Source: Streptomyces populi (GTDB lineage: Bacteria > Actinomycetota > Actinomycetes > Streptomycetales > Streptomycetaceae). Taken from it: a stretch of 64,000 bases of DNA. Where the stretch lies: positions 1-64,000 of the forward strand of contig NZ_KZ626860.1 in assembly GCF_002911015.1 (NCBI RefSeq), read 5' to 3'. How positions within the stretch are numbered: position 1 is the first letter of the stretch; the number at the start of each line of letters is the position of its first letter. This document shows, piece by piece, positions 1 to 54,121 of this stretch. A model generated the notes under the pieces. It searched no databases. It was not told the DNA's origin and worked only from the letters and a program-made list of their open reading frames with translations. The position numbers and the translations under genes were made by a program.

Positions 1-2770
1 TCAGCTGCGGAGCCAGATTCGCCTGCCGGACGCGCCGGGGCAGCGGTGCCGTACCCGGTTCCGGCTGTCCCGCCGCCGTGTCGCGGCGGGAAGTCGTGTC
101 GTCCGGTCTCCCGGCGGACGCGGTGGTGCGGGTGCGCCGGGGCAGGGCTGGGGCGTCATGGGGGCCCTGGACGTCCGGACGGCCGGTGGTGCCCGCACGG
201 AGACCGGGCGTACCGGGAGGTTCTGGTGCCTCGTGAAGAGCGGGCCTTCCGGGTGTTCGGGCGCCCCCACGCGGACCGGAGGCGCCGGGGCGTTCGCCGC
301 CGCTCCGGGCCGAGGCCGCGGATCGCTCGCCGCGCCGCTCGGGCAGGGGCTTCATGCCTTCGAGTTCGGGCATCCGGCGTTTCCGGTGTTCCGCGTTCTC
401 TCCCGGCTCCGGGTCCCGTGCCGATTCGAGGTCCTGGGCCGTGGTCTCGTCCGTCTGTTCGCGCCACGCCCCGGTCCGGGTGACGGGACGGCCGTGGGAG
501 CTGACGAGCTTGGGTGCCCGGCGGCGCGGCAACGGGACGGGAGCGGTGTCCGGACGGTCGTCGTCGCCCGGGCGGGCGGTGTCGTCGCCGTCGCCGGTCC
601 GCTGGTACCGCCCCGCGGGAACCCCGGCGATGGAGCGCCGCGGGCGGAACAGTCCTCCGCGTTCGCTGTCGTCGTCGCCGAGAGCACCGGGGAATCCGGT
701 GAGCGTGTCCAGGTCGACGGGCTCGTCCAGCTCGACGGGGCCGTCCAGGACCGAGGCGGGCAGGCCCGGAAGCCGCGCCGACGATTCGGTGAGTGTCGGG
801 CCGCGGCGTTCCCCGGTCTTGCGCTCCTTGGCGGGCAGGGTGCGGTCGAGGCGGAATCCGATGCCGTTGGTGTCCGGGACGTCGTCGCTGAGCAGGGCGT
901 CCGGCATGAAGACAACTGCGGTGGTGCCGCCGTACGGGGAAGGCTGCAGCGAGACGCGGACGTTCTGCCGCTGGGCGAGCCGGCTGACCACGAAGAGACC
1001 GAGCCGGTCGGTGTCGGAGAGTTCGAACTCGGGGGTCTCGGCGAGCCGCAGGTTGGCGTCGAGCAGTGCCTCGGCGGTCATGCCGAGGCCGCGGTCGTGG
1101 ATCTCCAGGGTGAAGCCGTTGGCGACGCGCTCGCCGACGACGTGGACGGCCGTGTGCGGGGGCGAGAACACCGTTGCGTTCTCGAGGAGTTCGGCCACGA
1201 GATGGGTGACGTCGGCGACGGCGGGGCCCGTGACCGCGACACGCGGCAGCCGGCGCACCTCGACGCGTTCGTAGTCCTCGACCTCGGCGACGGCGGCGCG
1301 CACGATGTCCATGAGCTGGACCGGCTTGCGCCACTGCCGGGACGGCGCCGCGCCGGACAGGATGACCAGTCCCTCGGCATGGCGGCGCATTCGGGTGGTC
1401 AGGTGGTCGAGGCGGAACAGGTCGGCCAGTTCGTCGGTGTCCTCGGTCCTGCGTTCCATGGTGTCGAGGAGGGTGAGCTGTTTGTGGAGCAGCACCTGAC
1501 TGCGGCGGGCGAGATTGACGAAGACCTCGGAGACGCCCTCGCGCAGTTCGGACTGCTTGACGGCCGCCTCGACGGCGGCCCGCTGAAGGGTGTTGAGGGC
1601 CTGGCCGACCTCGCCTATCTCGTTCCTGTCGTACTCCAGGCGCGGCACCTCGGTCTCGACGTCGACCTGCTCGCCCGCGGAGAGCCGGCGCATGACGCTG
1701 GGCAGCCGCACGCCGGACGCCTCGTGGGCCTCCGTGCGCAGCCGCCGCAGGTCACGGATGAGACTCCGGCCGATGCGTACGGACATGACGAGCGAGATCA
1801 GCAGGGCGATCAGACCCACCACGCCCGCGCCGACGGCCTGGAGGATGACGCCCATGGCCACCGGCCTGATCCGGTCCCGGTGGTGGTCGCCCGCCCGGTC
1901 CTCGAGCTGACCGAGTTCGGCGAGCACATGTCCGGCCGCGCCGTCCCAGCTCTTCGCGGTGACACCGCTCGGCGAGCCGGCCGTGGAGGCGGCGACGGCC
2001 TGCTCCGCCGCGCGCAGCGGTCCGGTACCGGCGTTCCTCCAGTAGCGCTCGAAGCGCTCGCGGTCCGACGAGGGCAGCGACGGCAGGCTGATCTCGTACA
2101 GCAGGGTGCGCTGGGCCACGAGGTCGGAGACGTCGCGGAGTTCGTCCCGGGTGATGCGACCGGCGACCAGCGCGGAGCCGAGGAGGGCGTCCTCACGGGA
2201 GAGCAGCTCCCGGGCGCGGGAGACGTTGACGAGGGCGCGGCCCTCTTTGTCCACCTCCACGTCGTCGACGACGTGGAGGTTGGCCAGCAGGACGTAGCAG
2301 GGATCGATCAGGCGGTCGTAGAGGCCGAGCGCCTGGGCGCGGTTGATGGTGCCGTCCTCGACGCCGTCGCGCAGCGAGGAGATCCCGTCGACCGCGTCGA
2401 TGAGGGAGGTGAGGCGCTCCGCGGTGCCCTCGCCCAGTTCCTCCCGCACGCTCTTGTCCCTGGCGTTCCTGCGGACCCTCGCCAGGACGAGGTCCGTGGC
2501 ACCGCGGCTGCGCTTGAGCGCCGCGAGCCCGTCGGACGCGCGGGGGTCGGCCAGATAGACCAGCGTCCGACGGCGTTCCTGCTGGAGGACCCTGACAGTG
2601 TCCTCGGTCGGATGACCGATCTTCTTGACGATCTCCGAGACGCTGAAGAGCTGACCGGCTTCACGCCCCGTCAGTACCGTCGCGAAAGCCCAGATCGCCG
2701 TCAACGACACCAGGGGCACGAGGAGCAGCGCCACAATCTTCCGGCGGATGGACTTCCCGCGAAAGCGCAT
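1..2770 (-). CDS. cvnA: Conservon-type (CvnA) nitrate/nitrite-sensing sensor histidine kinase, C-terminus cut by window edge
   Basis: This is a membrane sensor kinase-like protein of which 923 codons are visible; the frame is still open at base 1. It starts MRFRGKSIRRK, with a first membrane segment at about residues 12-34. A long extracytoplasmic helical region (about 50-300) of NIT type follows, then a second membrane segment (about 303-332) and a HAMP-like region. The ATPase domain has an N-box (LVAELLENA, about 523), a G1 box (HDRGLGM, about 557) and a G2-like GLFVVSRLA (about 593). After about residue 640 comes a Pro/Arg/Asp-rich, low-complexity tail. The start is the ATG at 2770, with GGGAGG just upstream. 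In Streptomyces such kinases head conservons (kinase, roadblock CvnB, DUF742 CvnC, GTPase CvnD); those partners would lie left of the window. The family assignment is firm; the cognate conservon number is not known. Confidence 0.9.
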   Translation of the reverse strand, partial: MRFRGKSIRRKIVALLLVPLVSLTAIWAFATVLTGREAGQLFSVSEIVKKIGHPTEDTVRVLQQERRRTLVYLADPRASDGLAALKRSRGATDLVLARVRRNARDKSVREELGEGTAERLTSLIDAVDGISSLRDGVEDGTINRAQALGLYDRLIDPCYVLLANLHVVDDVEVDKEGRALVNVSRARELLSREDALLGSALVAGRITRDELRDVSDLVAQRTLLYEISLPSLPSSDRERFERYWRNAGTGPLRAAEQAVAASTAGSPSGVTAKSWDGAAGHVLAELGQLEDRAGDHHRDRIRPVAMGVILQAVGAGVVGLIALLISLVMSVRIGRSLIRDLRRLRTEAHEASGVRLPSVMRRLSAGEQVDVETEVPRLEYDRNEIGEVGQALNTLQRAAVEAAVKQSELREGVSEVFVNLARRSQVLLHKQLTLLDTMERRTEDTDELADLFRLDHLTTRMRRHAEGLVILSGAAPSRQWRKPVQLMDIVRAAVAEVEDYERVEVRRLPRVAVTGPAVADVTHLVAELLENATVFSPPHTAVHVVGERVANGFTLEIHDRGLGMTAEALLDANLRLAETPEFELSDTDRLGLFVVSRLAQRQNVRVSLQPSPYGGTTAVVFMPDALLSDDVPDTNGIGFRLDRTLPAKERKTGERRGPTLTESSARLPGLPASVLDGPVELDEPVDLDTLTGFPGALGDDDSERGGLFRPRRSIAGVPAGRYQRTGDGDDTARPGDDDRPDTAPVPLPRRRAPKLVSSHGRPVTRTGAWREQTDETTAQDLESARDPEPGENAEHRKRRMPELEGMKPLPERRGERSAASARSGGERPGASGPRGGARTPGRPALHEAPEPPGTPGLRAGTTGRPDVQGPHDAPALPRRTRTTASAGRPDDTTSRRDTAAGQPEPGTAPLPRRVRQANLAPQL

Positions 2771-42346: not shown

Positions 42347-43303
42347 TCAGCCGGCCCCCGGCACGGGCAGGCCGCAGGCGCGGCGGGCGCGGGAGAGCTG
42401 CTCCTCGGGTTCGCCGAACACGCTCCACGGCATGCGGCAGGCGTACGGCCCCATGGCCATGAACACCGCGCGCGCCTCGAACTCGCGCTGCGCCATGAAG
42501 AGCGCGTGCGCCAGGTACGCCAGGTCGAGCACCGGCGTGAAGCGGTATCCGGCCACTTCCGGCAGCCAGTTCTGGTAGATCGCGAGCGCCGTGGAACGCC
42601 ACTGCGGCTGCTCCCAGGTGCGGTCGACCAGCAGTTGCGTGGGGTTGTAGCTCTCCACCAGGGCCACCAGCGGCAGCAGTCGCAGCGGCGAGGTGGCGGG
42701 GGCGCGCTGGCTCAGGAAGGCGGCGACGTCCCAGGCGGCGTTCACGGAGCCGCCGTAGCGCGTGAAGAAGAACGCCAGGAACCGGTGGTGGCCCTCACGG
42801 TTCCAGGGGTCGAGGCGCAGGACGTGCGAGAACAGGCGCCAGGGGCCCGGAGGCCGGGTCAGCAGCCCCTCCGGGGCCGAGTCGCGCAGGTCGTGCAGCC
42901 GGGCCATGGACAACCGGGCGACCCAGGGCGTGGGATCGGCCCGGTCCATCACCGCGGCCCGGTCGCAGGCGGTCAGCGCTATGCGCTCCAGCGCCTCGGC
43001 CCGGTCGTCCTTGGCGTCGGCCGCGCGCAGTGCCCGCAGCACGGCCACGCGGGCCCACATCAGGGCGGACTCGGGGGTCTGCTCCTCCGCCAGCCAGCGT
43101 TCGGCGAGGTCGGAGTCGGCGGCCTCGGAGGCGAGGACCAGGGAACGGTGGGCCCGTAATCCGTAGTGGGAGCGGGTTTCCTCAAGAGCTTGGTGGGCGC
43201 TCAGATAGCGGCCCGCTCTGACGTCCGTGCAGACGCTCGCGAGAGTGCGGTCGTCGGCCGCCGGATGCCACACATACTGTCCCTCGAATAATCCCGCGGC
43301 CAT
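42347..43303 (-). CDS. Helical (TPR-like) protein of unknown function
   Basis: This 318-aa protein is built of helix pairs rich in Arg/Ala/Leu/Trp (RYLSAHQALEETRSHYG, WVARLSMARLHDLRDSAP, HHRFLAFFFTRYGGSVNAAWDVA). It has no signal or membrane segment and resembles the TPR-like proteins of unknown function common in Streptomyces. The ATG at 43303 is used; the GTG at 43273, with GAGGGA 7 nt upstream, is an equally good alternative start. It is the first gene before the APC permease. Confidence 0.75.
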   Translation of the reverse strand: MAAGLFEGQYVWHPAADDRTLASVCTDVRAGRYLSAHQALEETRSHYGLRAHRSLVLASEAADSDLAERWLAEEQTPESALMWARVAVLRALRAADAKDDRAEALERIALTACDRAAVMDRADPTPWVARLSMARLHDLRDSAPEGLLTRPPGPWRLFSHVLRLDPWNREGHHRFLAFFFTRYGGSVNAAWDVAAFLSQRAPATSPLRLLPLVALVESYNPTQLLVDRTWEQPQWRSTALAIYQNWLPEVAGYRFTPVLDLAYLAHALFMAQREFEARAVFMAMGPYACRMPWSVFGEPEEQLSRARRACGLPVPGAG

Positions 43304-43533
43304 CTTCCCCTGTCCGTCCCCGTACGACTTCGCCGTTCCGCAACAGGAACCCTACTCAGCATCTCCGAGTACCGGAACGCCTTATCCGAAATACCTGGTT
43401 CCGCGGGGTCGGGAATTTGGGGAGCGAGTCCGTGAAGTTCTTGAGGATTGTTCAGCGAATGGTTCAATACGACACCATCCTGAACCCATGGATCCGCTGT
43501 GGGCGGCGCCTCGATAGAATGTTCCCCAGGACT

Positions 43534-44187
43534 ATGCCCACCCCGCGCCTCACCCCGGGAAACCCCATTCACGACCTCGCCTCGCGGCTGCTGCGGCTGC
43601 CACCCTCCTGCGGGCCCGTCCGGCTGATCGGCGTGGACGGCCACGCCGGCTCCGGAAAGACCACGTTCACCGGGTCACTGGCGGCGGCCCTGGGCGGCGC
43701 GCCCGTACTGCACCTCGACGACATCGCCACCCACGAGGAACTCTTCGGCTGGACCGGGCGCCTGCTGAGCCGGGTGATCGAACCGTTCGGGCGCGGCGAG
43801 ACGGCGCGGTACGCCCCCTACGACTGGACCGCCCGGGAGTTCGGACCGGTCCGCGAACTGCCGGCCGCGCCCGTGGTGCTCGTCGAGGGCGTCGGAGCCG
43901 GACGCCGTGCGCTGCGCCCGTGGCTCGCGCGCGTCCTGTGGATGGAGTTGCCGCACGAGCAGGCCTGGGCGCGGGGGCGGCGGCGGGACGGCCGGGCGCA
44001 GAGCGACTTCTGGGACGGATGGGTCCGCGCCGAGCGCCGGCACTTCGCCGAGGACCCCACACGGCCGTTCGCGGACCTCGTGGTGCGGCAGTGTCGCGAG
44101 GGGTACGAGGTGCTGCCAGGGCCTGCCGGGACGTCTGGACCGGACCAGCTCATCACTCACCGTGATGGACCGTCCGCAGTGTGCTGA
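43534..44187 (+). CDS. Uridine-kinase-like P-loop kinase
   Basis: This 217-aa protein has a P-loop (GVDGHAGSGKTTF), a Walker B-type segment (VLHLDDIATHEELFGW) and the uridine kinase-like core APYDWTAREFGPVRELPAAPVVLVEGVGAG. A lid region (WARGRRRDGRAQSDFWDGW) follows. A small phosphoacceptor, nucleoside or other, is likely. Start at the ATG at 43534; the upstream ATG at 43519 overlaps TAGAAT (43515-43520), a possible -10 box for a short-leader transcript. Confidence 0.85.
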   Translation: MPTPRLTPGNPIHDLASRLLRLPPSCGPVRLIGVDGHAGSGKTTFTGSLAAALGGAPVLHLDDIATHEELFGWTGRLLSRVIEPFGRGETARYAPYDWTAREFGPVRELPAAPVVLVEGVGAGRRALRPWLARVLWMELPHEQAWARGRRRDGRAQSDFWDGWVRAERRHFAEDPTRPFADLVVRQCREGYEVLPGPAGTSGPDQLITHRDGPSAVC

Positions 44188-44236: not shown

Positions 44237-44266
44237 TTGACCAGGGGGCCGTACAGGTCTTACGTT
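44237..44266 (+). promoter_or_regulatory. HrdB-type promoter for a predicted small RNA
   Basis: TTGACC (44237-44242), an 18-bp spacer, and TACGTT (44261-44266) fit the vegetative Streptomyces consensus well. The expected start is about 44273. No open frame with a ribosome-binding site follows before the terminator. Confidence 0.7.
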
Positions 44267-44272
44267 CTGAAG

Positions 44273-44345
44273 CAGCGGCCCTTCGGGAACCGCCCGCAGT
44301 CGCGAAGCCCCCGGTTGTTCCCCCGTGATCGGGGGCTTCGTTCTG
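44273..44345 (+). ncRNA. Candidate ~73-nt small RNA
   Basis: The region runs from the predicted start to a strong terminator. The 5' part folds as GCGG-CCC-TTCG-GGAA-CCGC. A linker follows, then the terminator stem with a C-rich loop containing CCCCC, the type of sequence that could pair with G-rich ribosome-binding sites. It lies in the 467-nt gap between the P-loop kinase (stop 44187) and the AAA ATPase (start 44655). It could instead be a terminated leader (attenuator) of the AAA gene. Not recognised as a known RNA family. Confidence 0.5.
44303..44340 (+). terminator. Intrinsic terminator of the small RNA
   Basis: CGAAGCCCCCG (44303-44313) and CGGGGGCTTCG (44330-44340) form an 11-bp perfect stem with a 16-nt loop, followed by TTCTGCCC, a modest U-containing tail. 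Confidence 0.85.
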
Positions 44346-44654
44346 CCCACACCCTCTCTTTCCGGACACCCCGCAGCGTGATTCGCTCACCCTGGGTCAC
44401 TGTCCGCAGTGCGCCCCGTCCGCTCCCACCTCGTGGAACGGGCCGTGCGGCACCCTTCGGCAGGCCCGTCGACCGCGGGTACCATGCCTCTCGGTGCGGC
44501 TTTCGGACGGCTGCTCTGCCGCACCGCTTCAACTCCCGTCCGCGGCACAGTCGTTCGACCAGAGCTGCCGACGGGCACCGGCCCGGCGGCAAGGGGATGT
44601 CCTGATCCGCGAGGCACTTCCCGATCATCGGGGGCACGGTTTGTGGGGGACGTG

Positions 44655-46520
44655 ATGGACTTCGGCACGCAGGGCCCCGAGGCCCCGGCCGACCTCGCCT
44701 GGCTGCGAGGCGTGGACGCCTACACGATGGGCGCCTACCCGCAGGCGGAGGAGGAGTTCCGCGCCGCGGTCCGGATGGACCCCGGCATGGCGGACGGCTG
44801 GCTCGGACTGCACGCGCTACGGGTGGACACGACGACCGCTCTGCTGCGGATGTTCCGGCACCGGGACCGCTTCGGCGAGCAGCGCTCCCGCCACCGACGC
44901 ACCCTCAACTCCTGGTACTGGCTGGGCTGGTGGGTCCAGCCGGTGCTGGAGAGCCCGCGCGACCTGCTGCTCGCGCACGCCTCGCACTGGCTCGACGGCC
45001 GTCATGTCCCCGAACTGGACCGGGCGTTGGCAGGTCTGCCGCCGGTCGACGCGGACCACCAGGTGCGGTTCCTGCACGCGTGCCGCGCCTATCTGGTGAA
45101 GGACTGGGAGCAGTTGGTGCGGCACACCGATCCGCTGATCAACGATCCCATGCTCGGTATCGAGGCCGGCCTGTTCGGCGGCATGGCACGGGTCCGGCTG
45201 GAGATGTACGGACAGGCCGAGCCGCTGCTGTCGTCCGCCCTGATGCGCTGCCGCAGCGAGCAGCCGCAGCGCAAGGAGCTGCGGTACTGGCTGGCCCGCG
45301 CCCACGAGGGCACCGGACGCTCCGCCGCGGCCCTGCCCCTGTACCGGGCGGTGCACCGGGTCGACCCCTCCTTCATGGACACCTCGGCGCGGCTCGCCGC
45401 CATCGCCGAGGGGGACGGGTACGACGAGACCGCCGCCGACCTCGCGGCGATCACGCTCGCCGGGATCGGGCAGGACGTGCTGGAGGGCCCGGACGGCATG
45501 GACGCGCTGTTCGGCACCGAGGGACGCGATCTGAGGCTCCCGGATCCCGACCCGTCGCCGCCCGGTGCCCTGCCGGTCCAGGCCGACGGCTTCCGGGAGA
45601 AGGCCGCGGTGCCGGTGCAGCCGATGCCCGCGGGGCCGACCGACCCCGCCCTGCTCGACGAGGCGCTCGCCGAGCTGGAGCGCATGGTGGGCCTGGAGCC
45701 GGTGAAGCGACAGGTCAAGGCGCTGTCGGCACAGCTGAACATGGCCAGGCTGCGCACCGGGCAGGGACTGCCGGTGCAGCCGCCGAAACGGCACTTCGTC
45801 TTCTCCGGCCCCTCCGGCACCGGCAAGACCACGGTGGCCCGCATTCTCGGCCGGGTCTTCTACGCGCTCGGGCTGCTCGGCGGGGACCACCTGGTCGAGG
45901 CCCAGCGGGCCGACCTGGTCGGCGAGTACCTCGGCCAGACCGCCGTGAAGGCCAACGAGCTGATCGACTCGGCGATCGGCGGCGTCCTGTTCGTGGACGA
46001 GGCGTACTCCCTGTCCAACTCCGGCTACGGCAAGGGCGACGCGTACGGCGACGAGGCCCTCCAGGTGCTGCTGAAGCGGGCCGAGGACAACCGGGACCAC
46101 CTGGTCGTCATCCTCGCGGGATACCCCGAGGGCATGGACCGCCTGCTCGCCGCCAACCCCGGTCTCTCCTCGCGCTTCACCAGCCGCGTGGACTTCCCCT
46201 CCTACCGCCCCCTCGAACTGACCTCCATCGGCGAGGTGCTGGCCGCCGAGAACGGCGACGTCTGGGACGAGGAGGCGCTGGACGAGCTCCGCTCGATCGC
46301 CGGGCACGTCGTCGACCAGGGCTGGATCGACGAGCTCGGCAACGGCCGCTTCCTGCGCACGCTGTACGAGAAGAGCTGCGCGTACCGCGATCTGCGGCTG
46401 TCGGGATACCCCGGCACACCGTCGCGCGACGACCTGTCGACGCTGCGTCTGCCCGACCTCATGCAGGCCTACGGGGAGGTCCTCTCCGGCCGGGGCCCGC
46501 AGGATCCGTCCGCCATGTGA
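44655..46520 (+). CDS. EccA/CbbX-like AAA+ ATPase with an N-terminal TPR domain
   Basis: This 621-aa protein has a TPR-like helical domain (about 10-265, WLRGVDAYTMGAYPQAEEEF). A disordered Pro-rich linker (about 290-325) leads to a CbxX/CfqX-type AAA+ module with Walker A GPSGTGKTT (about 386), the GEYLGQTAVKANELIDSA pore region, Walker B GVLFVDEAYSL (about 443) and the sensor segment LVVILAGYPEGM. Start at the ATG at 44655, with GGGGGA just upstream. The layout equals that of EccA of type VII (ESX) secretion, but no other ESX genes are in this window. It is probably a remodelling ATPase. Confidence 0.92.
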   Translation: MDFGTQGPEAPADLAWLRGVDAYTMGAYPQAEEEFRAAVRMDPGMADGWLGLHALRVDTTTALLRMFRHRDRFGEQRSRHRRTLNSWYWLGWWVQPVLESPRDLLLAHASHWLDGRHVPELDRALAGLPPVDADHQVRFLHACRAYLVKDWEQLVRHTDPLINDPMLGIEAGLFGGMARVRLEMYGQAEPLLSSALMRCRSEQPQRKELRYWLARAHEGTGRSAAALPLYRAVHRVDPSFMDTSARLAAIAEGDGYDETAADLAAITLAGIGQDVLEGPDGMDALFGTEGRDLRLPDPDPSPPGALPVQADGFREKAAVPVQPMPAGPTDPALLDEALAELERMVGLEPVKRQVKALSAQLNMARLRTGQGLPVQPPKRHFVFSGPSGTGKTTVARILGRVFYALGLLGGDHLVEAQRADLVGEYLGQTAVKANELIDSAIGGVLFVDEAYSLSNSGYGKGDAYGDEALQVLLKRAEDNRDHLVVILAGYPEGMDRLLAANPGLSSRFTSRVDFPSYRPLELTSIGEVLAAENGDVWDEEALDELRSIAGHVVDQGWIDELGNGRFLRTLYEKSCAYRDLRLSGYPGTPSRDDLSTLRLPDLMQAYGEVLSGRGPQDPSAM

Positions 46521-46547
46521 CAGATGCGACAGGGCCCCGGTCCCGCC

Positions 46548-46579
46548 GGGCCGTACGACCGTCACCGGTCGCACGGCCC
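46548..46579. terminator. Hairpin between convergent AAA ATPase and CorC genes
   Basis: 46548-46561 pairs with 46566-46579 (14 positions with one mismatch, loop TCAC). It is flanked by further GGGCCCCGG/CCGGGGCCC complementarity. Confidence 0.8.
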
Positions 46580-46605
46580 CCGGGGAGCCCGGGGCCCACG
46601 CGCGG

Positions 46606-47691
46606 TCAGCTCGCCAGCGCCTCCTCGGCCTGGCCGGGGCGCTGCTCCGCGACCCGTACCGGCGTCACCTCGCGGTGCGCCGGGTCCCGTACCTCGCCGA
46701 CCAGCAGTTCCAGCACGTCCTCGAGGGCCACGAGGCCGAGGACCTTCCCGGAGGCGTCGGCGACCTGGGCGAGGTGGGTGGCGGCACGGCGCATCACGGT
46801 GAGGGCGTCGTCCAGCGGGAGTTCGGACCGCAGGGTGGTCATCGGCCGCCACATCTGCTGCGGCACCGCCCGCTCGGACTCCTCCAGGTCGAGGACGTCC
46901 TTCACGTGGAGGTAGCAGCCCATGAAGGCGCCGTTCTCCGCGACCACCGGGAACCGGGAGTACCCGGTGCGCGCGGTGAGCGCGACCACCTGGCCCGGGG
47001 TGACCGACGGGTCCACGGTGACCAGCGAGGCGCCGTCGAGGAGGACGTCGGTGACCGGGCGGGAGCCGAGTTCCAGGGCGTCCTCGAGGCGCTCCTGCTC
47101 CTCGGGTTCGAGGAGTCCCGCCTGTCCGGAGTCCTCCACCAGCCGGTTGAGCTGCTCGCTGGTGAAGACCGCCTCGACCTCGTCCTTGGGCTCGACCCGG
47201 AACAGCTTGAGGATCAGCTGCGCGCAGGCGCCGAGGGCCACCGTGACCGGGCGGCACACCCGTGCGAAGGCGACCAGTCCGGGACTGAGCCACAGGGCCG
47301 TCTTCTCGGGCGCGGCCATCGCCAGGTTCTTCGGGACCATCTCGCCGATGACGAGGTGGAAGAAGACGACGAGGGCGAGCGCGATCACGTAGCCGAGGGG
47401 GTGGATCACCCCGTGCGGCAGCCGGACCGCCTCGAAGACCGGCTCCAGCAGCCGGGCGACCGTGGGCTCGGCGACCGCGCCGAGGGTCAGCGAGCACAGC
47501 GTGATGCCGAACTGGGCCGCCGCCATCATCTGCGGCAGGCGCTCCAGGCCGTACAGGACCTGCCGGGAGCGGGCGGTGCCCAGCGGTTCGATCTGGCTGC
47601 GCCGTACGGACACGAGCGCGAACTCGGCGCCGACGAAGAAGCCGTTGGCGAGCACCAGCAGGCCCGCGAACAGCAGTTGGAGCATGCTCAT
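46606..47691 (-). CDS. CorC/HlyC-family membrane protein (DUF21 plus CBS), shorter paralogue
   Basis: This 361-aa protein has an N-terminal DUF21 domain with four helices (LVLANGFFVGAEFALVSVRRS, FGITLCSLTLGAVAEP, VIGEMVPKNLA). A cytoplasmic CBS pair follows (about 195-330, SRFPVVAENGAFMGCYLHVKDVL, GLVALEDVLELLVGEV). The C-terminal CorC_HlyC domain of the longer paralogue is missing. CNNM/CorC-type proteins are tied to magnesium or cobalt efflux. Its ATG overlaps the stop of the upstream paralogue by 4 nt, so the two are translationally coupled and may form heteromers. Confidence 0.92.
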   Translation of the reverse strand: MSMLQLLFAGLLVLANGFFVGAEFALVSVRRSQIEPLGTARSRQVLYGLERLPQMMAAAQFGITLCSLTLGAVAEPTVARLLEPVFEAVRLPHGVIHPLGYVIALALVVFFHLVIGEMVPKNLAMAAPEKTALWLSPGLVAFARVCRPVTVALGACAQLILKLFRVEPKDEVEAVFTSEQLNRLVEDSGQAGLLEPEEQERLEDALELGSRPVTDVLLDGASLVTVDPSVTPGQVVALTARTGYSRFPVVAENGAFMGCYLHVKDVLDLEESERAVPQQMWRPMTTLRSELPLDDALTVMRRAATHLAQVADASGKVLGLVALEDVLELLVGEVRDPAHREVTPVRVAEQRPGQAEEALAS

Positions 47692-49019
47692 CGGACGGCC
47701 TCCGGGGCGAGCGCGGTCCGCACGAGGCGGACGCGTTCGGCGCGGTAGTGCCCGACCTGCCGCACCACGAGGCGCCAGCCCGGGAGCTCCGCCTTGTCGC
47801 CGGGGGCCGGGATCCGGCCCAGCAGGTCGGCGACGAGGCCGGCCACGGTCTCGTACGGCCCCTCGGGCACGTCGAGGCCTATGCGCTGGAGGATGTCGAC
47901 CCGGCAGCTGCCGTCGGCGTCCCAGGCGGGCCGGCCGTCCTCGGGGGGAGCCGCCGCGAGCTCGGGCTGCTCCCCCTGCACGTCGTCGTGCTCGTCGCGG
48001 ACCTCGCCGACGAGTTCCTCGACGATGTCCTCCAGGGTCACCACGCCGGCCGTGCCGCCGTACTCGTCGACGACGACGGCGATCGGCTGTTCGCTGCGCA
48101 GCCGCTCCAGGAGGGGCTGCACGGGCAGGGTCTCCGGGACGAGCAGCGGGGCCTGGGCGATCCGGCCCACGGGGGTGCGCAGCCGGTCGTGCGCGGGGAT
48201 CGCGAGGGCGTCCTTGAGGTGCACCATGCCCACGACCTCGTCGATCCGCTCCCGGTAGACGGGGAAGCGGGACAGGCCGGTGGCACGGGTGAGGTTGACG
48301 ACGTCCTCGGCGGTGGCCGACGACTGGAGGGCGCTGACCTTCACCCGCGGCGTCATGACGTGCTGCGCGGTGAGGTCGGCCAGGGACATCGTGCGGACGA
48401 AGAGGTCCGCGGTGTCCTGTTCCAGGGCGCCCGCGCGGGCCGAGTGGCGGGCGAGGGAGACGAGTTCGCCGGGGGTGCGGGCGGAGGCCAGCTCCTCGGC
48501 GGGTTCCACGCCCAGGGCGCGGACGAGCCGGTTGGCGACCGCGTTCAGCGCGGCGATCACCGGCCGGAACAGCCGGGAGAAGACGTGCTGCGGGCCGGCG
48601 ACGAAGCGGGCCACCTGGAGCGGCTTGGACACCGCCCAGTTCTTGGGCACGAGTTCACCGACCACCATCTGCACGGCCGAGGCCAGCAGCATGCCGGTCA
48701 CCACGGCGACGCCGGGCACCGCGCCCTCGGGCAGTCCGAGCGCCCCGAACGGGCCGTCCAGCAACTGGGCGAGGGCCGGTTCGGCGAGCATGCCGACGAC
48801 GAGCGAGGTGATGGTGATGCCGAGCTGGGTGCCGGAGAGCTGGAAGGACAGCTCCTTGAGCGACTCGACGACCGTGCCGGCGCGTCTGTCGCCGTCGGCC
48901 GCGGCCTTCTCGGCGTCGGGGCGCTCGACGGTGACGAGGCCGAACTCGGCGGCCACGAAGAAGCCGTTGGCGAGGATCAGCAGGAACGCCGCGCCAAGGA
49001 GCAACAGGGGGATGGTCAT
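47688..49019 (-). CDS. CorC/HlyC-family membrane protein (DUF21, CBS pair and CorC_HlyC domain)
   Basis: This 443-aa protein has a DUF21 membrane domain (ILANGFFVAAEFGLVTVERPD, LGITITSLVVGMLAEPA, VGELVPKNWAVS). CBS domains (about 205-330, MTPRVKVSALQSS, SRFPVYRERIDEVVGMVHLKD, VVVDEYGGTAGVVTLEDIVEELVGEVRDEHD) and a C-terminal CorC_HlyC transporter-associated domain (about 345-430) follow. First gene of the pair; the ATG is at 49019. Divalent-cation homeostasis is the family role. Confidence 0.93.
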   Translation of the reverse strand: MTIPLLLLGAAFLLILANGFFVAAEFGLVTVERPDAEKAAADGDRRAGTVVESLKELSFQLSGTQLGITITSLVVGMLAEPALAQLLDGPFGALGLPEGAVPGVAVVTGMLLASAVQMVVGELVPKNWAVSKPLQVARFVAGPQHVFSRLFRPVIAALNAVANRLVRALGVEPAEELASARTPGELVSLARHSARAGALEQDTADLFVRTMSLADLTAQHVMTPRVKVSALQSSATAEDVVNLTRATGLSRFPVYRERIDEVVGMVHLKDALAIPAHDRLRTPVGRIAQAPLLVPETLPVQPLLERLRSEQPIAVVVDEYGGTAGVVTLEDIVEELVGEVRDEHDDVQGEQPELAAAPPEDGRPAWDADGSCRVDILQRIGLDVPEGPYETVAGLVADLLGRIPAPGDKAELPGWRLVVRQVGHYRAERVRLVRTALAPEAVR

Positions 49020-49137
49020 GCCGCCGCCTCGCTATGTCGGAAGGGGGCGGCGCAGGTACTACAGGACGATCCGTCCATCGCTGGAGGGAGTCACTCCTCG
49101 GGTAGCAGGGGGCCTCTGAGGGCGGGAGCACGACGGA

Positions 49138-49166
49138 GGCGGAGGCGCGATGAAAACGCCTCCGCC
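49138..49166 (-). terminator. Terminator of the riboflavin-histidine operon
   Basis: GGCGGAGGCG (49138-49147) and CGCCTCCGCC (49157-49166) form a perfect 10-bp stem with a 9-nt loop, 51 nt beyond the PH-domain gene stop on the leftward strand. The adjoining GATTAATC is AT-rich. Confidence 0.75.
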
Positions 49167-49216
49167 GACAGATTAATCAAGACATGGGTTCTCGGGGCAG
49201 GGTGGAGGGCCGAGAG

Positions 49217-49684
49217 TCAGCTCTCGTGTCCGCCGTTGCGCCCGTCCGGCTCCGGGATCGCGCGGGCCGAAGCCAGGGCCCGCAGAGCACGGGCGTCCTC
49301 GATGGCGCGCTGCCTGGCGATGCCCGGCTGGATGCCGAGCGCCGGGAGACTGGTGCCGTCGCTGAGGTCGAGGAACACCCAGGGGTCGCCGGGACGCAGG
49401 TTGACCTGGAGGATCTCCGCCCAGTCCAGGTGCCGGCGGCTCGCGATGTTGACGACGGTGACACCGCTCTCGTCGGCGACGACCTTGGGCCGCGCGAGCA
49501 GCACGAGCACGCCGAAGAGCAGCGCCGCGGTGAGGATGAAGCTGAGCCGCTCCCCCGGGCCTAGTTGCTCCAGAAGCATGGCGACCGTGGTGATGACCAC
49601 AAGGATCGAGGCGCCCGCGGTGAGCAGCACGGCCCGGGTACGGGAAGGGCGGAAAGTTATGGGAAGGGAGGGAAGATCCGACAT
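49217..49684 (-). CDS. Small membrane protein with a bacterial PH-like domain
   Basis: This 155-aa protein has two membrane helices (about 17-37 and 48-65) followed by a PH-like beta domain (VVADESGVTVVNIASRRHLDWAEILQVNLRPGDPWVFLDLSDG). The C-terminal helix is Ala/Arg-rich (ARQRAIEDARALRALASARA). Its ATG is 14 nt after the hisG stop with no strong ribosome-binding site, so it is probably translated by coupling. Last gene of the rib-his operon. Function unknown. Confidence 0.85.
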   Translation of the reverse strand: MSDLPSLPITFRPSRTRAVLLTAGASILVVITTVAMLLEQLGPGERLSFILTAALLFGVLVLLARPKVVADESGVTVVNIASRRHLDWAEILQVNLRPGDPWVFLDLSDGTSLPALGIQPGIARQRAIEDARALRALASARAIPEPDGRNGGHES

Positions 49685-49698
49685 GTCCGTTGGTTCCG

Positions 49699-50556
49699 TC
49701 AGAGCCGGCAGGCGTGGATGGCCGTGGTCAGGATGGCCCGCGCGCCGAGCGCGTACAGGTCGTCCATGATCCGCTGGGCCTCCTTGGAGGGGACCATGGC
49801 GCGGACGGCGACCCAGCCCTCGTTGTGCAGGGGCGAGATGGTCGGCGACTCCAGGCCGGGAGTGAGCGCGACGGCCCTCTCCAGGTGCTCGGCGCGGCAG
49901 TCGTAGTCCATCATCACGTACGTCCGCGCGACCAGCACGCCCTGGAGGCGGCGCAGGAACTGCTGCACCTTGGGCTCGGCGTCCTCGGTGGGGCCGGCCC
50001 CGACGCGGCGGACGACGACGGCCTCGGACTTCATGATCGGCTCGCCGAAGATCTCCAGACCGGCGTTGCGCAGCGAGGTCCCGGTCTCCACGACGTCCGC
50101 GATGACCTCGGCGACACCGAGTTCGATGGCGGTCTCGACGGCGCCGTCGAGGTGGACGACGGAGGCGTCGATGCCGTGGTCGGCGAGGTGCCCCGCGACG
50201 ATGCCCTCGTAGGAGGTGGCGATCGTCCTGCCCTTCAGGTCCGCGACGCCGTTGGCGGTGCCCGGCTTGGCGGCGAAGCGGAAGGTGGAGCGGGCGAAGC
50301 CGAGCGGGAGGATCTCCTCGGCGTCGGCTCCGGAGTCGACCAGCAGGTCGCGGCCGGTGATGCCGATGTCTAGCTTGCCGGAGGAGACGTAGATCGCGAT
50401 GTCCCGGGGGCGGAGGTAGAAGAACTCGACCTCGTTGTTCGGGTCGACGATCCGCAGTTCCTTGGACTCCCGGCGCTGCTGGTAGCCGGCCTCATGCAGC
50501 ATGTCCGCCGCAGGTCCTGAGAGGGAACCCTTGTTGGGGACGGCGATGCGCAGCAT
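49699..50556 (-). CDS. hisG: ATP phosphoribosyltransferase (long form)
   Basis: This 285-aa enzyme commits PRPP and ATP to histidine synthesis. Marks are LRIAVPNKGSLS at the start, DIGITGRDLLVDSG, and EVIADVVETGTSLRNAGL (PRPP loop). A C-terminal ACT-like regulatory domain (about 210-285, LTPGLESPTISPLH and VRAMVPSKEAQRIMDDLY) makes it the long, histidine-inhibited form that needs no HisZ. The ATG at 50556 is preceded by AAAGGAAG. It lies 86 nt after hisE. Confidence 0.97.
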   Translation of the reverse strand: MLRIAVPNKGSLSGPAADMLHEAGYQQRRESKELRIVDPNNEVEFFYLRPRDIAIYVSSGKLDIGITGRDLLVDSGADAEEILPLGFARSTFRFAAKPGTANGVADLKGRTIATSYEGIVAGHLADHGIDASVVHLDGAVETAIELGVAEVIADVVETGTSLRNAGLEIFGEPIMKSEAVVVRRVGAGPTEDAEPKVQQFLRRLQGVLVARTYVMMDYDCRAEHLERAVALTPGLESPTISPLHNEGWVAVRAMVPSKEAQRIMDDLYALGARAILTTAIHACRL

Positions 50557-50642
50557 GAGGTCGGCTTCCTTTGCTCGGTGGTGTTCGGGGTGGGTGGGAC
50601 GGGCGGACGTGCTCGGTGAGGGGGTACCGCTGGAAGCGGCCC

Positions 50643-50915
50643 CTACAGATGCGCGTACACGTCGTCGAGGGAGATCCCGCGCGCGACCATCATCACCTGG
50701 ACGTGGTAGAGCAGCTGCGAGATCTCCTCGGCGGCGGCGTCCTTGCCCTCGTACTCGGCGGCCATCCAGACCTCCGCGGCCTCTTCGACGACCTTCTTGC
50801 CGATGGCATGGACGCCCTTGCCGACGAGTTCGGCGGTGCGCGAGGTGGCGGGATCGCCCGTGGCGGCCTTGTGCTGGAGCTCGGTGAAGAGCTCCTCGAA
50901 CGTCTTATTGGACAT
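50643..50915 (-). CDS. hisE: Phosphoribosyl-ATP diphosphatase
   Basis: This 90-aa all-helical enzyme hydrolyses PR-ATP to PR-AMP, the second histidine step. The MazG-like metal motif [16 protein letters not shown] and [15 protein letters not shown] are present. The ATG at 50915 with GAGGACC upstream is chosen over a GTG 12 nt earlier that lies in the ribosome-binding site. It follows ribH by 34 nt. Separate HisE and HisI is the normal actinomycete state. Confidence 0.96.
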
Positions 50916-50949
50916 GGTGGTCCTCACCCTACGCGCTCGGGGCCGTACC

Positions 50950-51435
50950 TCAGTGCCAGGGTTCAGATACTGAGCGGAGGGTGGCCGCGGTCGCCACGGC
51001 GGCCGTCACCGCCTCGTGGCCCTTGTCCTCGTTGGAGCCCTCGATGCCCGCCCGGTCCAGGGCCTGCTCCTCGGTGTCACAGGTCAGCACGCCGAAGCCG
51101 ATGGGGACGCCGGTCTCGATGGAGACCTGGGTGAGGCCCTGGGTGACGCCCTGGCACACGTACTCGAAGTGGGGGGTCCCACCGCGGATGACGACGCCGA
51201 GCGCGACGATCGCGTCGTAGCCGCGGCCCGCCAGGACCTTGGCGGCGACCGGCAGTTCGAAGCTGCCGGGGACCCGCAACAGGGTCGGCTCGTCGATTCC
51301 CAGCTCGCGCAGGGCGCGCAGCGCGCCGTCGACGAGACCGTCCATCACCTTGTCGTGCCACTGTGCCGCGATGACCGCGACCCGCAGGTCGCCGCAGTTG
51401 CGTACGGACAGTTCAGGTGCACCCTTGCCGCTCAC
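50950..51435 (-). CDS. ribH: 6,7-dimethyl-8-ribityllumazine synthase
   Basis: This 161-aa protein forms lumazine from 5-amino-ribitylaminouracil and dihydroxybutanone phosphate in icosahedral or pentameric shells. Motifs are [51 protein letters not shown] with the catalytic His, and [12 protein letters not shown]. The GTG at 51435 has GGAGAG upstream. It is 102 nt after ribBA, a gap that contains 8-bp tandem repeats. Confidence 0.97.
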
Positions 51436-51476
51436 GTCTCTCCTTCAGTCCCGCTGTGCCGTGTTGCCGATAGTTC

Positions 51477-51500
51477 CGTGCTGTCGTGCTGTCGTGCTGT
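51477..51500. repeat. (CGTGCTGT)3 tandem repeat between ribBA and ribH
   Basis: Three perfect 8-bp copies at 51477, 51485 and 51493 are followed by diverged copies (CGTGCCGA, TGGTGCCG). The array lies in the 102-nt intercistronic gap of the rib operon and would be transcribed. Confidence 0.85.
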
Positions 51501-51537
51501 CGTGCCGATGGTGCCGTGTGCCGCCGGTCGTGCGGGG

Positions 51538-52869
51538 TCACTGGCTCCCGCAGGCCGACACGGTGACCGAGTCGAGCCAGGGCAGGTCGTGTCCCATCCG
51601 GTCCCGCTTGGTCCGCAGGTAGCTCAGGTTGTGCTCGCCCGCCTGGACCGGCATCGGTTCCCGCCCGGTGACCCGCAGGCCGTACCGGACGAGCGCGTCG
51701 GTCTTGTCGGGGTTGTTGGTCATCAGGCGCAGGCTGCGGACGCCGAGGTCCTCCAGGATCCGGGCGCTCGCGCCGTAGTCCCGGGCGTCGGCGGGCAGGC
51801 CGAGTTCCAGGTTGGCGTCGAGGGTGTCCCGGCCGCGCTCCTGGAGTTCGTACGCGCGCAGCTTGGAGAGCAGGCCGATGCCGCGCCCCTCGTGGCCGCG
51901 CAGGTAGACCACGATGCCGCGGCCTTCGGCCTGGATGCGCTCCATGGACGTCTGGAGCTGGGGACCGCAGTCGCAGCGGTGCGAGTGGAACACGTCGCCG
52001 GTGAGGCATTCGGAGTGGACGCGGACGAGGACGTCCTCGCCGTCGCCGATCTCGCCGTGGACGAGGGCGACGTGCTCGACGCCGTCGGCGGTGGAACGGT
52101 AGCCGTAGGCGGTGAACTCACCGAAGGCGGTGGGCAGACGGACCTCGGCCTCGCGCCGGACGGTGGGGGCGGCGGCACCCGTCTCCGCCGACGTGCCGTG
52201 CTCGGTGGAGCGGCGGTAGGCGATCAGGTCCTCGATGGAGATGATCGTCAGGCCGTGCTTGCGGGCGAAGGGGATCAGCTCGGGCAGCCGGAGCATCCGG
52301 CCGTCCTCGCCCGCGATCTCGACGATCGCCCCGGCCGGGCGCAGTCCCGCGAGGCGGGCCAGGTCGACGGCGGCCTCGGTGTGGCCGTTGCGGGCCAGCA
52401 CACCTCCGGGCCGCGCGCGCAGCGGGAAGATGTGGCCGGGGCGCACGAAGTCGTCGGCCCCCGAGACACCGTCGGCGAGGAGCCGCAGGGTGGCGGCGCG
52501 GTCGGCCGCCGAGATGCCGGTGGTCACCCCGTGGGCGGCGGACGCGTCCACCGACACCGTGAACGCGGTCTTCATCGACTCGGTGTTGTCGTCGACCATC
52601 TGCGGCAGGCGCAGCCGGTCGAGTTCGTCGCCCTCCATCGGCGCGCAGATCAGTCCGCGGCACTCGCTCATCATGAAGGCGACGATCTCGGGGGTCGCCT
52701 TCTCGGCGGCGACGACGAGGTCCCCCTCGTTCTCGCGGTCCTCGTCGTCGACGACCACGATGGGACGGCCGGCCGCGATGTCGGCGATGGCCTGCTCGAC
52801 GGGGTCGAGCGCGAAGTCCGAGGCATCCTGATCGTGCCCGGTGCTGTACCAAACCGGCGCCGTTGTCAT
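51538..52869 (-). CDS. ribBA: Bifunctional DHBP synthase / GTP cyclohydrolase II
   Basis: This 443-aa fusion makes both riboflavin precursors. The N-terminal DHBP synthase part (about 25-220) has [16 protein letters not shown] and [14 protein letters not shown]. The C-terminal cyclohydrolase II part (about 240-420) has the zinc ligands [16 protein letters not shown] and [10 protein letters not shown]. Both active sites look intact. The ATG at 52869 overlaps the transporter gene by 4 nt. Confidence 0.97.
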
Positions 52870-53501
52870 GCCGGGGCTCCTTCCATGACGGGCTGCCCGG
52901 CCTCACGGGAGCGCAGCCACCAGTCGCGCATGCCCCACAGGACGAGCGCGCCGTACAGGACGTAGACGAAACCGGAGAAGGCGTAGCCGTTGGCGAAGTT
53001 GAGCGGGACGCCCACCACGTCGACGAGCAGCCAGGCGAACCAGAACTCGACCATGCCGCGGGCCTGCGCGTACATGGCGACGATCGTGCCGACGAAGATG
53101 TAGGCGTCGGGCCAGGGGTCCCAGGACAGCGTCGGGTACGCGTGGAACAGGCCGCTGACCGCGAGGGTGCCCACGGCCGCGGCGCCCACCATGGCCGCGC
53201 GTTCGCGCCAGGTGGCGAACCGGACGGAGACGCGCCCGTCCTCGCTCTCGCCGCGGTTCCACCGCCACCAGCCCCACAGGGCGACGGCGATGACCACGAC
53301 CTGCTTGCCGGCGCTGCCGGTGAGGTGGCCGAAGAAGGCGGCGAAGAGGACGAGTCCGGAGAGGAGCTGGACGGGCCAGCTCCACACGGAGCGCCGCCAG
53401 CCGAGCGCCAGGGCGATCAGACCGATCACGTTGCCGATCATGTCCGACCACACGATGTGCTGGTCGAGGAGGACGAAGGCCTCGGAGTTGAGCCAGTTCA
53501 C
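52866..53501 (-). CDS. ribM: PnuC-family transporter, probable riboflavin importer RibM
   Basis: This 211-aa protein has seven or so membrane helices of the PnuC fold ([73 protein letters not shown]). PnuC proteins classically move nicotinamide riboside. Members inside FMN-riboswitch-controlled rib operons of actinomycetes (RibM/PnuX) carry riboflavin, and this gene lies between ribE and ribBA with 4-nt overlaps on both sides. The GTG is at 53501. Confidence 0.92.
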
Positions 53502-54121
53502 CTGCCCGCCTCCTGTGCGCCGGGCTGCTCACCGCGTGCGCCCAGCAGCCGCTCGACGTACTTGGCGATCACGTCGACCTCGAGGTTGACCGGGTCGCCG
53601 GGCTGCTTGTGGCCCAGCGTGGTCAGGTCGAGGGTGGTGGGGATGAGGCTGACGGTGAAGAAGTCGGGACCGGCGTCGACCACGGTCAGGCTGATGCCGT
53701 CGACGGTGATGGAGCCCTTCTCGACCACGTAGCGCGAAAGGTCGGCGGGCAGCGAGATCTTGACGATCTCCCAGTTCTCGGACGGCTTGCGCTCGATGAC
53801 CGCGCCGGTGCCGTCGACGTGTCCCTGCACGATGTGGCCGCCGAGGCGCTCTCCCACGGCCATCGGCCGTTCCAGGTTGACGCGGGAGCCGACGGTGAGG
53901 GCACCGAGGCTGGAGCGGTTCAGGGTTTCGGCCATGACGTCGGCGGTGAACTCGTCACCCTCGTGCTCGACCACGGTGAGACAGACTCCGTTGACGGCGA
54001 TGGAGTCGCCGTGCTGCGCGCCCTGCGTGACGACGGGGCCACGCAGCCGGAAACGCGAGGCGTCGTCGAGGATCTCGACGGCGGTGACCTCACCCAGCTC
54101 TTCGACGATTCCGGTGAACAC
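53498..54121 (-). CDS. ribE: Riboflavin synthase alpha chain
   Basis: This 207-aa enzyme has two lumazine-binding repeats. It opens with MFTGIVEELGEV and shows SIAVNGVCLTVV in repeat 1, and GHIVQGHVDGTG and SITVDGISLTVVD in repeat 2. It dismutates two lumazines to riboflavin. The GTG at 54121 is preceded by AGGAGG. It is the first gene after the FMN riboswitch; the leader between the aptamer and start is about 155 nt. Confidence 0.97.
   Translation of the reverse strand: MFTGIVEELGEVTAVEILDDASRFRLRGPVVTQGAQHGDSIAVNGVCLTVVEHEGDEFTADVMAETLNRSSLGALTVGSRVNLERPMAVGERLGGHIVQGHVDGTGAVIERKPSENWEIVKISLPADLSRYVVEKGSITVDGISLTVVDAGPDFFTVSLIPTTLDLTTLGHKQPGDPVNLEVDVIAKYVERLLGARGEQPGAQEAGR

Follow-up and report, generated by a model that had tools for sequence, protein, structure and literature searches.

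The locus and its genes

The window analysed here, which is the whole stretch of Streptomyces populi DNA at its full length of 64 kb, contains a short promoter-terminator unit between a kinase-like gene and an EccA-like AAA ATPase gene (hereafter the AAA gene; Table 1). The coordinates of the promoter TTGACC-18-TACGTT and of an 11-bp terminator with a C-rich loop, both put forward in the original prediction, were confirmed in the window sequence. The -10 box TACGTT lies 36 nt from the terminator stem, in which CGAAGCCCCCG (44303-44313) pairs with CGGGGGCTTCG (44330-44340) around the loop GTTGTTCCCCCGTGAT, followed by TTCTG. Folding lengthened this 11-bp stem via wobble pairs to 16 bp and left an 8-nt loop, UUCCCCCG; the z-score of the hairpin was -4.29 against 200 shuffles. 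Set against an intrinsic terminator, in which a U-run comes after a GC stem, the stem of the unit is strong and its tail short, only UUCUG. The start codon of the AAA gene is 309 nt past 44345. When compared with the EccA model TIGR03922, the AAA gene product scored 309 bits, under the equivalog cut-off of 466.65.

Table 1. Positions in the window of the small-RNA unit, its parts and the neighbouring genes
Feature	Position	Strand	Remark
P-loop kinase-like gene, upstream neighbour	43417..44187	+	AAA_18 below Pfam cut-off; exact start uncertain
-35 element TTGACC	44237..44242	+	read in the window sequence
-10 element TACGTT	44261..44266	+	spacer to -35 of 18 nt
Predicted small RNA, about 75 nt	44270..44345	+	start deduced from the -10 position; probable scr1434 orthologue
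5' hairpin GCGGCCCUUCGGGAACCGC	44275..44293	+	sequence and loop variable
16-bp terminator hairpin	44302..44341	+	44302-44317 with 44326-44341, from folding
Loop UUCCCCCG, proposed pairing seed	44318..44325	+	invariant in 43/43 distinct hairpins
Two G5 tracts in the AAA leader, candidate pairing sites	44630-44634, 44645-44649	+	second at the SD position
EccA-like TPR/AAA ATPase gene, downstream neighbour, candidate target	44655..46520	+	T7SS_EccA1_N and AAA above Pfam cut-offs

The AAA gene is the first of a run of ten genes (44655-54121) in the order AAA, CNNM, CNNM, bPH_6, HisG, HisE, RibH, RibAB, PnuC-like and RibE, in which the tenth is riboflavin synthase. An FMN riboswitch (RF00050, 54275-54405, minus strand, 100.2 bits) stands before riboflavin synthase and further rib genes. 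In S. coelicolor, riboflavin synthase is SCO1443, which is shown with an FMN riboswitch in the accessible part of a transcript map (PMC4681348). With SCO1443 as the tenth gene, counting back makes the AAA gene SCO1434, provided that the gene order is the same.

According to the accessible parts of Moody 2013 (PMC3765725), where new RNAs are named after the right-flanking gene, scr1434/sar6912/svr1031 is a highly expressed, discrete intergenic RNA that was detected by RNA-seq and northern blot in three Streptomyces species, with the strongest northern signals during aerial growth and sporulation, and its C-rich loop sits on a very stable stem. The unit likewise is intergenic and non-coding, lies left of the gene at the SCO1434 position, is conserved among streptomycetes and, as compared by description, shares the very stable hairpin whose loop is rich in C; no difference was found in this comparison, which consists of the gene count and the published description. 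On these two grounds the unit is almost certainly the orthologue of scr1434/sar6912/svr1031, and the RNA is probably already known, by gene order, in the three model species. The RNA-seq and northern signals of this probable orthologue, as given in the accessible parts of Moody 2013, agree with the promoter-terminator small RNA of the original prediction, which was to be abandoned if no transcript appeared. Within the literature searched, the names occurred only in Moody 2013, and a function of scr1434/sar6912/svr1031 was not found in the accessible text of the literature searched by name; a literature search with the sequence letters of the RNA gave no match. As far as these searches reach, the family-wide extent of the RNA, the constraint on its loop alone and the proposal of a target through leader complementarity are new.

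Conservation and synteny of the small RNA

The spaced motif TTGACC-17..19-TANNNT occurs a single time on both strands of the 64-kb window. A strict sigma-70 promoter scan of the window did not list TTGACC-18-TACGTT, and terminator-like sites alone are near chance in the window (3 found against 1.3 expected); the reality of the unit therefore rests on comparison. In a blastn search with the region, the genome of the window itself and 35 of 36 relatives of the same genus matched, the exception being genome G028. The promoter (TTGACC, 18-nt spacer, TACGTT) was unchanged and the terminator was retained in all 30 aligned Streptomyces loci. A covariance search across Streptomyces, which the original prediction had suggested as a check, was carried out with a model of promoter and transcript (R1, E <= 0.01) and matched 283 of 295 Streptomyces genomes, mostly near 1e-35, a count that includes G028, whose terminator was unrelated when read, and G010, which has the hairpin without the promoter. 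Promoter and stem are conserved, whereas the original prediction was to be refuted if neither of them were. Outside the genus R1 gave weak matches, the best of which (G038) was not this RNA when read. We found no homologues on plasmids and no tRNA or tmRNA in the unit, and Rfam 15 scans of the window and five relatives found no family for the unit at the gathering threshold.

The neighbourhood is also conserved. Both the kinase gene and the AAA gene are kept in 153 of 158 Streptomyces loci, and in the other five (four with the kinase alone, one with the AAA gene alone) the fetched piece was too short. The kinase gene is upstream on the same strand in 157/158 loci, the remaining sequence being cut short, and the AAA gene is downstream on the same strand in 154/158, the other four being cut short. 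The closeness to the EccA-like gene that the original prediction had pointed out is meaningful, for it recurs wherever the flanking sequence of a locus is long enough. The conservation settled that the stretch is a real small-RNA gene, a conclusion drawn from comparison of sequences.

Among 135 loci from several genera that were not selected by pattern and in which both promoter and hairpin were located, the -35 element was TTGACC in all (the finder itself required TTGAC[CA]), the -10 element was TACGTT in 122 and another TANNNT form in the remainder, and the spacer was 18 nt in 123 and 17 nt in 12. The 5' hairpin was present in single-sequence folds of 30/30 orthologues, with a stem sequence that differs among them. 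Its UUCG cap, which the original prediction had listed as a feature, did not hold up, with TTCG present in just 52 of 108 loci.

Two simpler readings of the unit can be weighed against this conservation. The unit follows directly after the stop codon of the kinase gene, as it would if it were nothing but the transcription terminator of that gene; this is hardly tenable, since a promoter of fixed spacing is conserved between the kinase gene and the hairpin, the loop is invariant while the stems are replaced, and Moody 2013, in its accessible parts, reports the probable orthologue as a separate RNA. Still less tenable is a transcript encoding a small leaderless peptide. AATGTG stands close to the predicted start in many orthologues, and the loop is overlapped by a TGA. 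However, single-base length changes put the ATG and the TGA in all three relative frames, so that the reading frame is not conserved, and the copy in the window has no ATG near the predicted start. In this count, 3 of 108 loci showed aberrant distances (21 twice, 81 once), which we ascribe to the search expression matching another site.

Across the family, 291 of 394 Streptomycetaceae genomes, belonging to 12 of 17 genera, contain the exact pattern TTGACC-17..19-TACGTT-42..72-GTTCCCCCGTG, with 0 matches of the backwards control among those listed. The sampled genera without the exact pattern mostly have the RNA with another -10 element (TAAGTT in g27, TAGCTT in g18, TAATGT in g28). The 14 genomes of genus g15 have the same promoter at the same place, with an unrelated terminator stem and the loop GTTCCCCCGT. 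In two loci of g15 (L245 and L277) the terminator stem is much longer, and an extra hairpin with a UUCCCCC loop separates the terminator from the 5' hairpin, a two-loop layout that resembles 6C RNA. The RNA was not found in g16 (G465, G480) or in G471 of g22, nor was it found in a group of Streptomyces that mostly have small genomes (L223-L233, L246). The loci of this last group retain the kinase-AAA gene pair without the RNA, and their AAA leaders have fewer G-tracts.

The terminator hairpin and its loop

Hairpins were collected across the family with a finder that required TTGAC[CA], TANNNT and TCCCCC. Loci L043-L122, which are the matches listed for an exact terminator pattern, were left out of the loop and stem statistics. 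Six candidate loci gave no hairpin: L319, L321 and L326 are short, second loci from genomes for which L336, L338 and L340 are already included, L325 and L331 (both G585) have the hairpin off-register, and the sixth is L268. Standard pairs made up 98.3% of the 688 pair cells in the 43 distinct hairpins, compared with 76.5% in shuffles, and compensatory cells numbered 118 against a shuffled mean of 21.9 and a shuffled maximum of 34. Shuffling leaves shared ancestry in, several loci come from the same or near-identical genomes, and related genomes are not independent. The loop was UUCCCCCG in 43/43 (TCCCCC being required by the finder), and one exception outside the 43, G585, has CUCCCCCG. The top stem pairs stay weak wobbles, with G-U in 40 of 43 at one position and U-G in 29 or C-G in 14 at the other.

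Within the genus, 24 distinct Streptomyces hairpins had 99.5% of cells paired and three pairs with compensatory change. When pairs were counted column by column in the transcript alignment, support did not exceed that of shuffles, since gaps in the 5' hairpin make the 5' helix uninformative and the terminator is nearly invariant in that set; the covariation support for the stem came from the more divergent sets of 24 and 43 hairpins. Without selection on both the structure of the stem and the sequence of the loop, it is difficult to account for a stem that has been replaced wholesale around a fixed loop. Since the loop UUCCCCCG is unchanged while the surrounding stem is replaced, the comparison points to the C-rich loop as the working part of the RNA.

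An invariant loop with free stem exchange fits a protein ligand equally well. The loop could be a protein-binding site through which the RNA acts on RNA polymerase or an RNA-binding protein, by titration or guidance, with no mRNA pairing, and another short S. coelicolor RNA, scr0792, has been found on RNA polymerase (PMC11077062, accessible part). However, the RIP-seq study in question concludes, in the same accessible part, on two polymerase-associated S. coelicolor RNAs, scr3559 and scr0792, and not scr1434, and this reading comes without a protein candidate; we regard it as unlikely.

Candidate targets and related RNAs

We favour, with fair confidence, an independent non-coding small RNA, orthologous to scr1434, whose loop would pair with G-tract leaders; as a conserved target, the AAA mRNA is the most plausible one. 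The observed basis of this reading is described above: the anatomy of the gene, its conservation and synteny, the covariation of the stem and the invariance of the loop. A TANNNT-type promoter, probably read by HrdB, would drive transcription, and the RNA's own terminator hairpin would end the transcript and double as its functional domain. The long GC stem would display the loop UUCCCCCG, and the weak top pairs could let the GUG after the C-run join the duplex. Pairing of the loop with G-tracts near mRNA start codons would then block ribosome binding, which is the direction of regulation that we infer.

The G-tracts of the AAA leader are themselves conserved. GGGGG lies within 24 nt of the AAA start in 154/154 Streptomyces loci (97% in a 22-nt leader window, with starts chosen slightly differently), and 144 of the 154 leaders have at least two tracts of four or more G. 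Across all genera, at least two such tracts were present in 192/210 loci that have the RNA versus 3/15 loci that lack it, and GGGGG in 206/210 versus 12/15; locus L222, in which the gene start is cut off, was left out of the leader counts. Many AAA leaders of genus g20 contain CGGGGGAAC, the perfect complement of GUUCCCCCG. The median pairing energy with the loop was -17.1 for AAA leaders versus -7.8 to -14.3 for the leaders of other neighbours. Among the neighbours, the hisG leader is also conserved (AAGGAA in 14/14), which, like the GGGGG kept in 12/15 AAA leaders of loci lacking the RNA, weakens the case for the AAA target. On the minus strand at 42347-43303, a 318-aa protein without an NCBIfam match has the leader motif CGGGGA, conserved in 21 of 22 loci (fraction 0.95).

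The original prediction had suggested that the C-rich loop pairs with SD-like GGAGG sites. Pairing of this kind fits the invariant loop and the replaced stems, but GGAGG is not the best match, and the conserved candidate sites are GGGGG tracts. Target prediction with the loop placed the AAA leader as the top local candidate, but when set among 146 background genes from this genome its loop pairing energy reached just the 5.5% level; 15 of these 146 genes also have two G-tracts, and 8 of 100 shuffled loops ranked the AAA leader of the window as high. Because of this genome background, the AAA gene as the best local target candidate is suggestive only, and because the CCCCC loop never varies, loop-leader pairing is beyond the reach of covariation. 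We take pairing with G-rich mRNA leaders as the most likely mechanism, with the AAA mRNA as the first candidate target.

The complementarity of loop and AAA leader in cis, and a strand and order that never differ among loci with enough sequence, would also be expected if the unit were the 5' leader of the AAA mRNA, with the hairpin as an attenuator whose read-through controls the AAA gene and the short RNA as a by-product. We consider this as improbable as the protein-binding site: hairpin and start codon lie anywhere between 168 and 522 nt apart among the loci, and Moody 2013, in its accessible parts, treats the RNA as discrete, highly expressed and intergenic. Returning to the independent small RNA, we tentatively propose as a further possibility that a family-wide RNA, of which only the loop UUCCCCCG is tightly constrained, controls AAA translation via the leader G-tracts, and that RNA and leader co-evolved and faded together in the mostly small-genome Streptomyces lacking the RNA.

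Streptomyces have many small RNAs, few of them with a known target (PMC8388888). Here, the probable orthologue of the RNA is abundant during development in three model species (accessible parts of Moody 2013, PMC3765725), the RNA has stayed beside the same two genes, and the comparison singles out an eight-base loop as the likely working part and names a first candidate target. A covariance model of the whole family would fill a gap in Rfam 15.

Among known RNAs, 6C RNA (RF01066) is, like the unit, a short RNA of actinobacteria in which a GC-rich stem carries a C-rich loop, and it was the best low-threshold Rfam match of the unit, at full length (26.3 bits, E 0.24). This score is far under the gathering score of 47, and 6C RNA was not found above gathering at this locus in five relatives. 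While 6C RNA forms two hairpins, each with at least six C in its loop, the unit has one C-rich loop, UUCCCCCG, with five C. The genome of the window has its canonical 6C RNA, with two C7 loops, at another locus (G000:C28:29108-29183, 47.6 bits, just over gathering). Membership in 6C was rejected on the score, the single five-C loop and the 6C RNA elsewhere in the genome; even with the two 6C-like C-loops of L245 and L277 in g15, a divergent member of that family is quite improbable and largely refuted as a description of the unit. Nevertheless, the unit may work like 6C RNA without being a member. A further RNA conserved among streptomycetes, scr5583/sar2652/svr5279, has a terminal loop rich in C (67%) according to the accessible parts of Moody 2013 and is set beside the unit by description; its number implies another locus. 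The S. aureus RNAIII-type antisense RNAs, cited in the same accessible parts, target mRNAs with a C-rich loop, and we compare the unit with them in its possible way of working, with no homology claimed.
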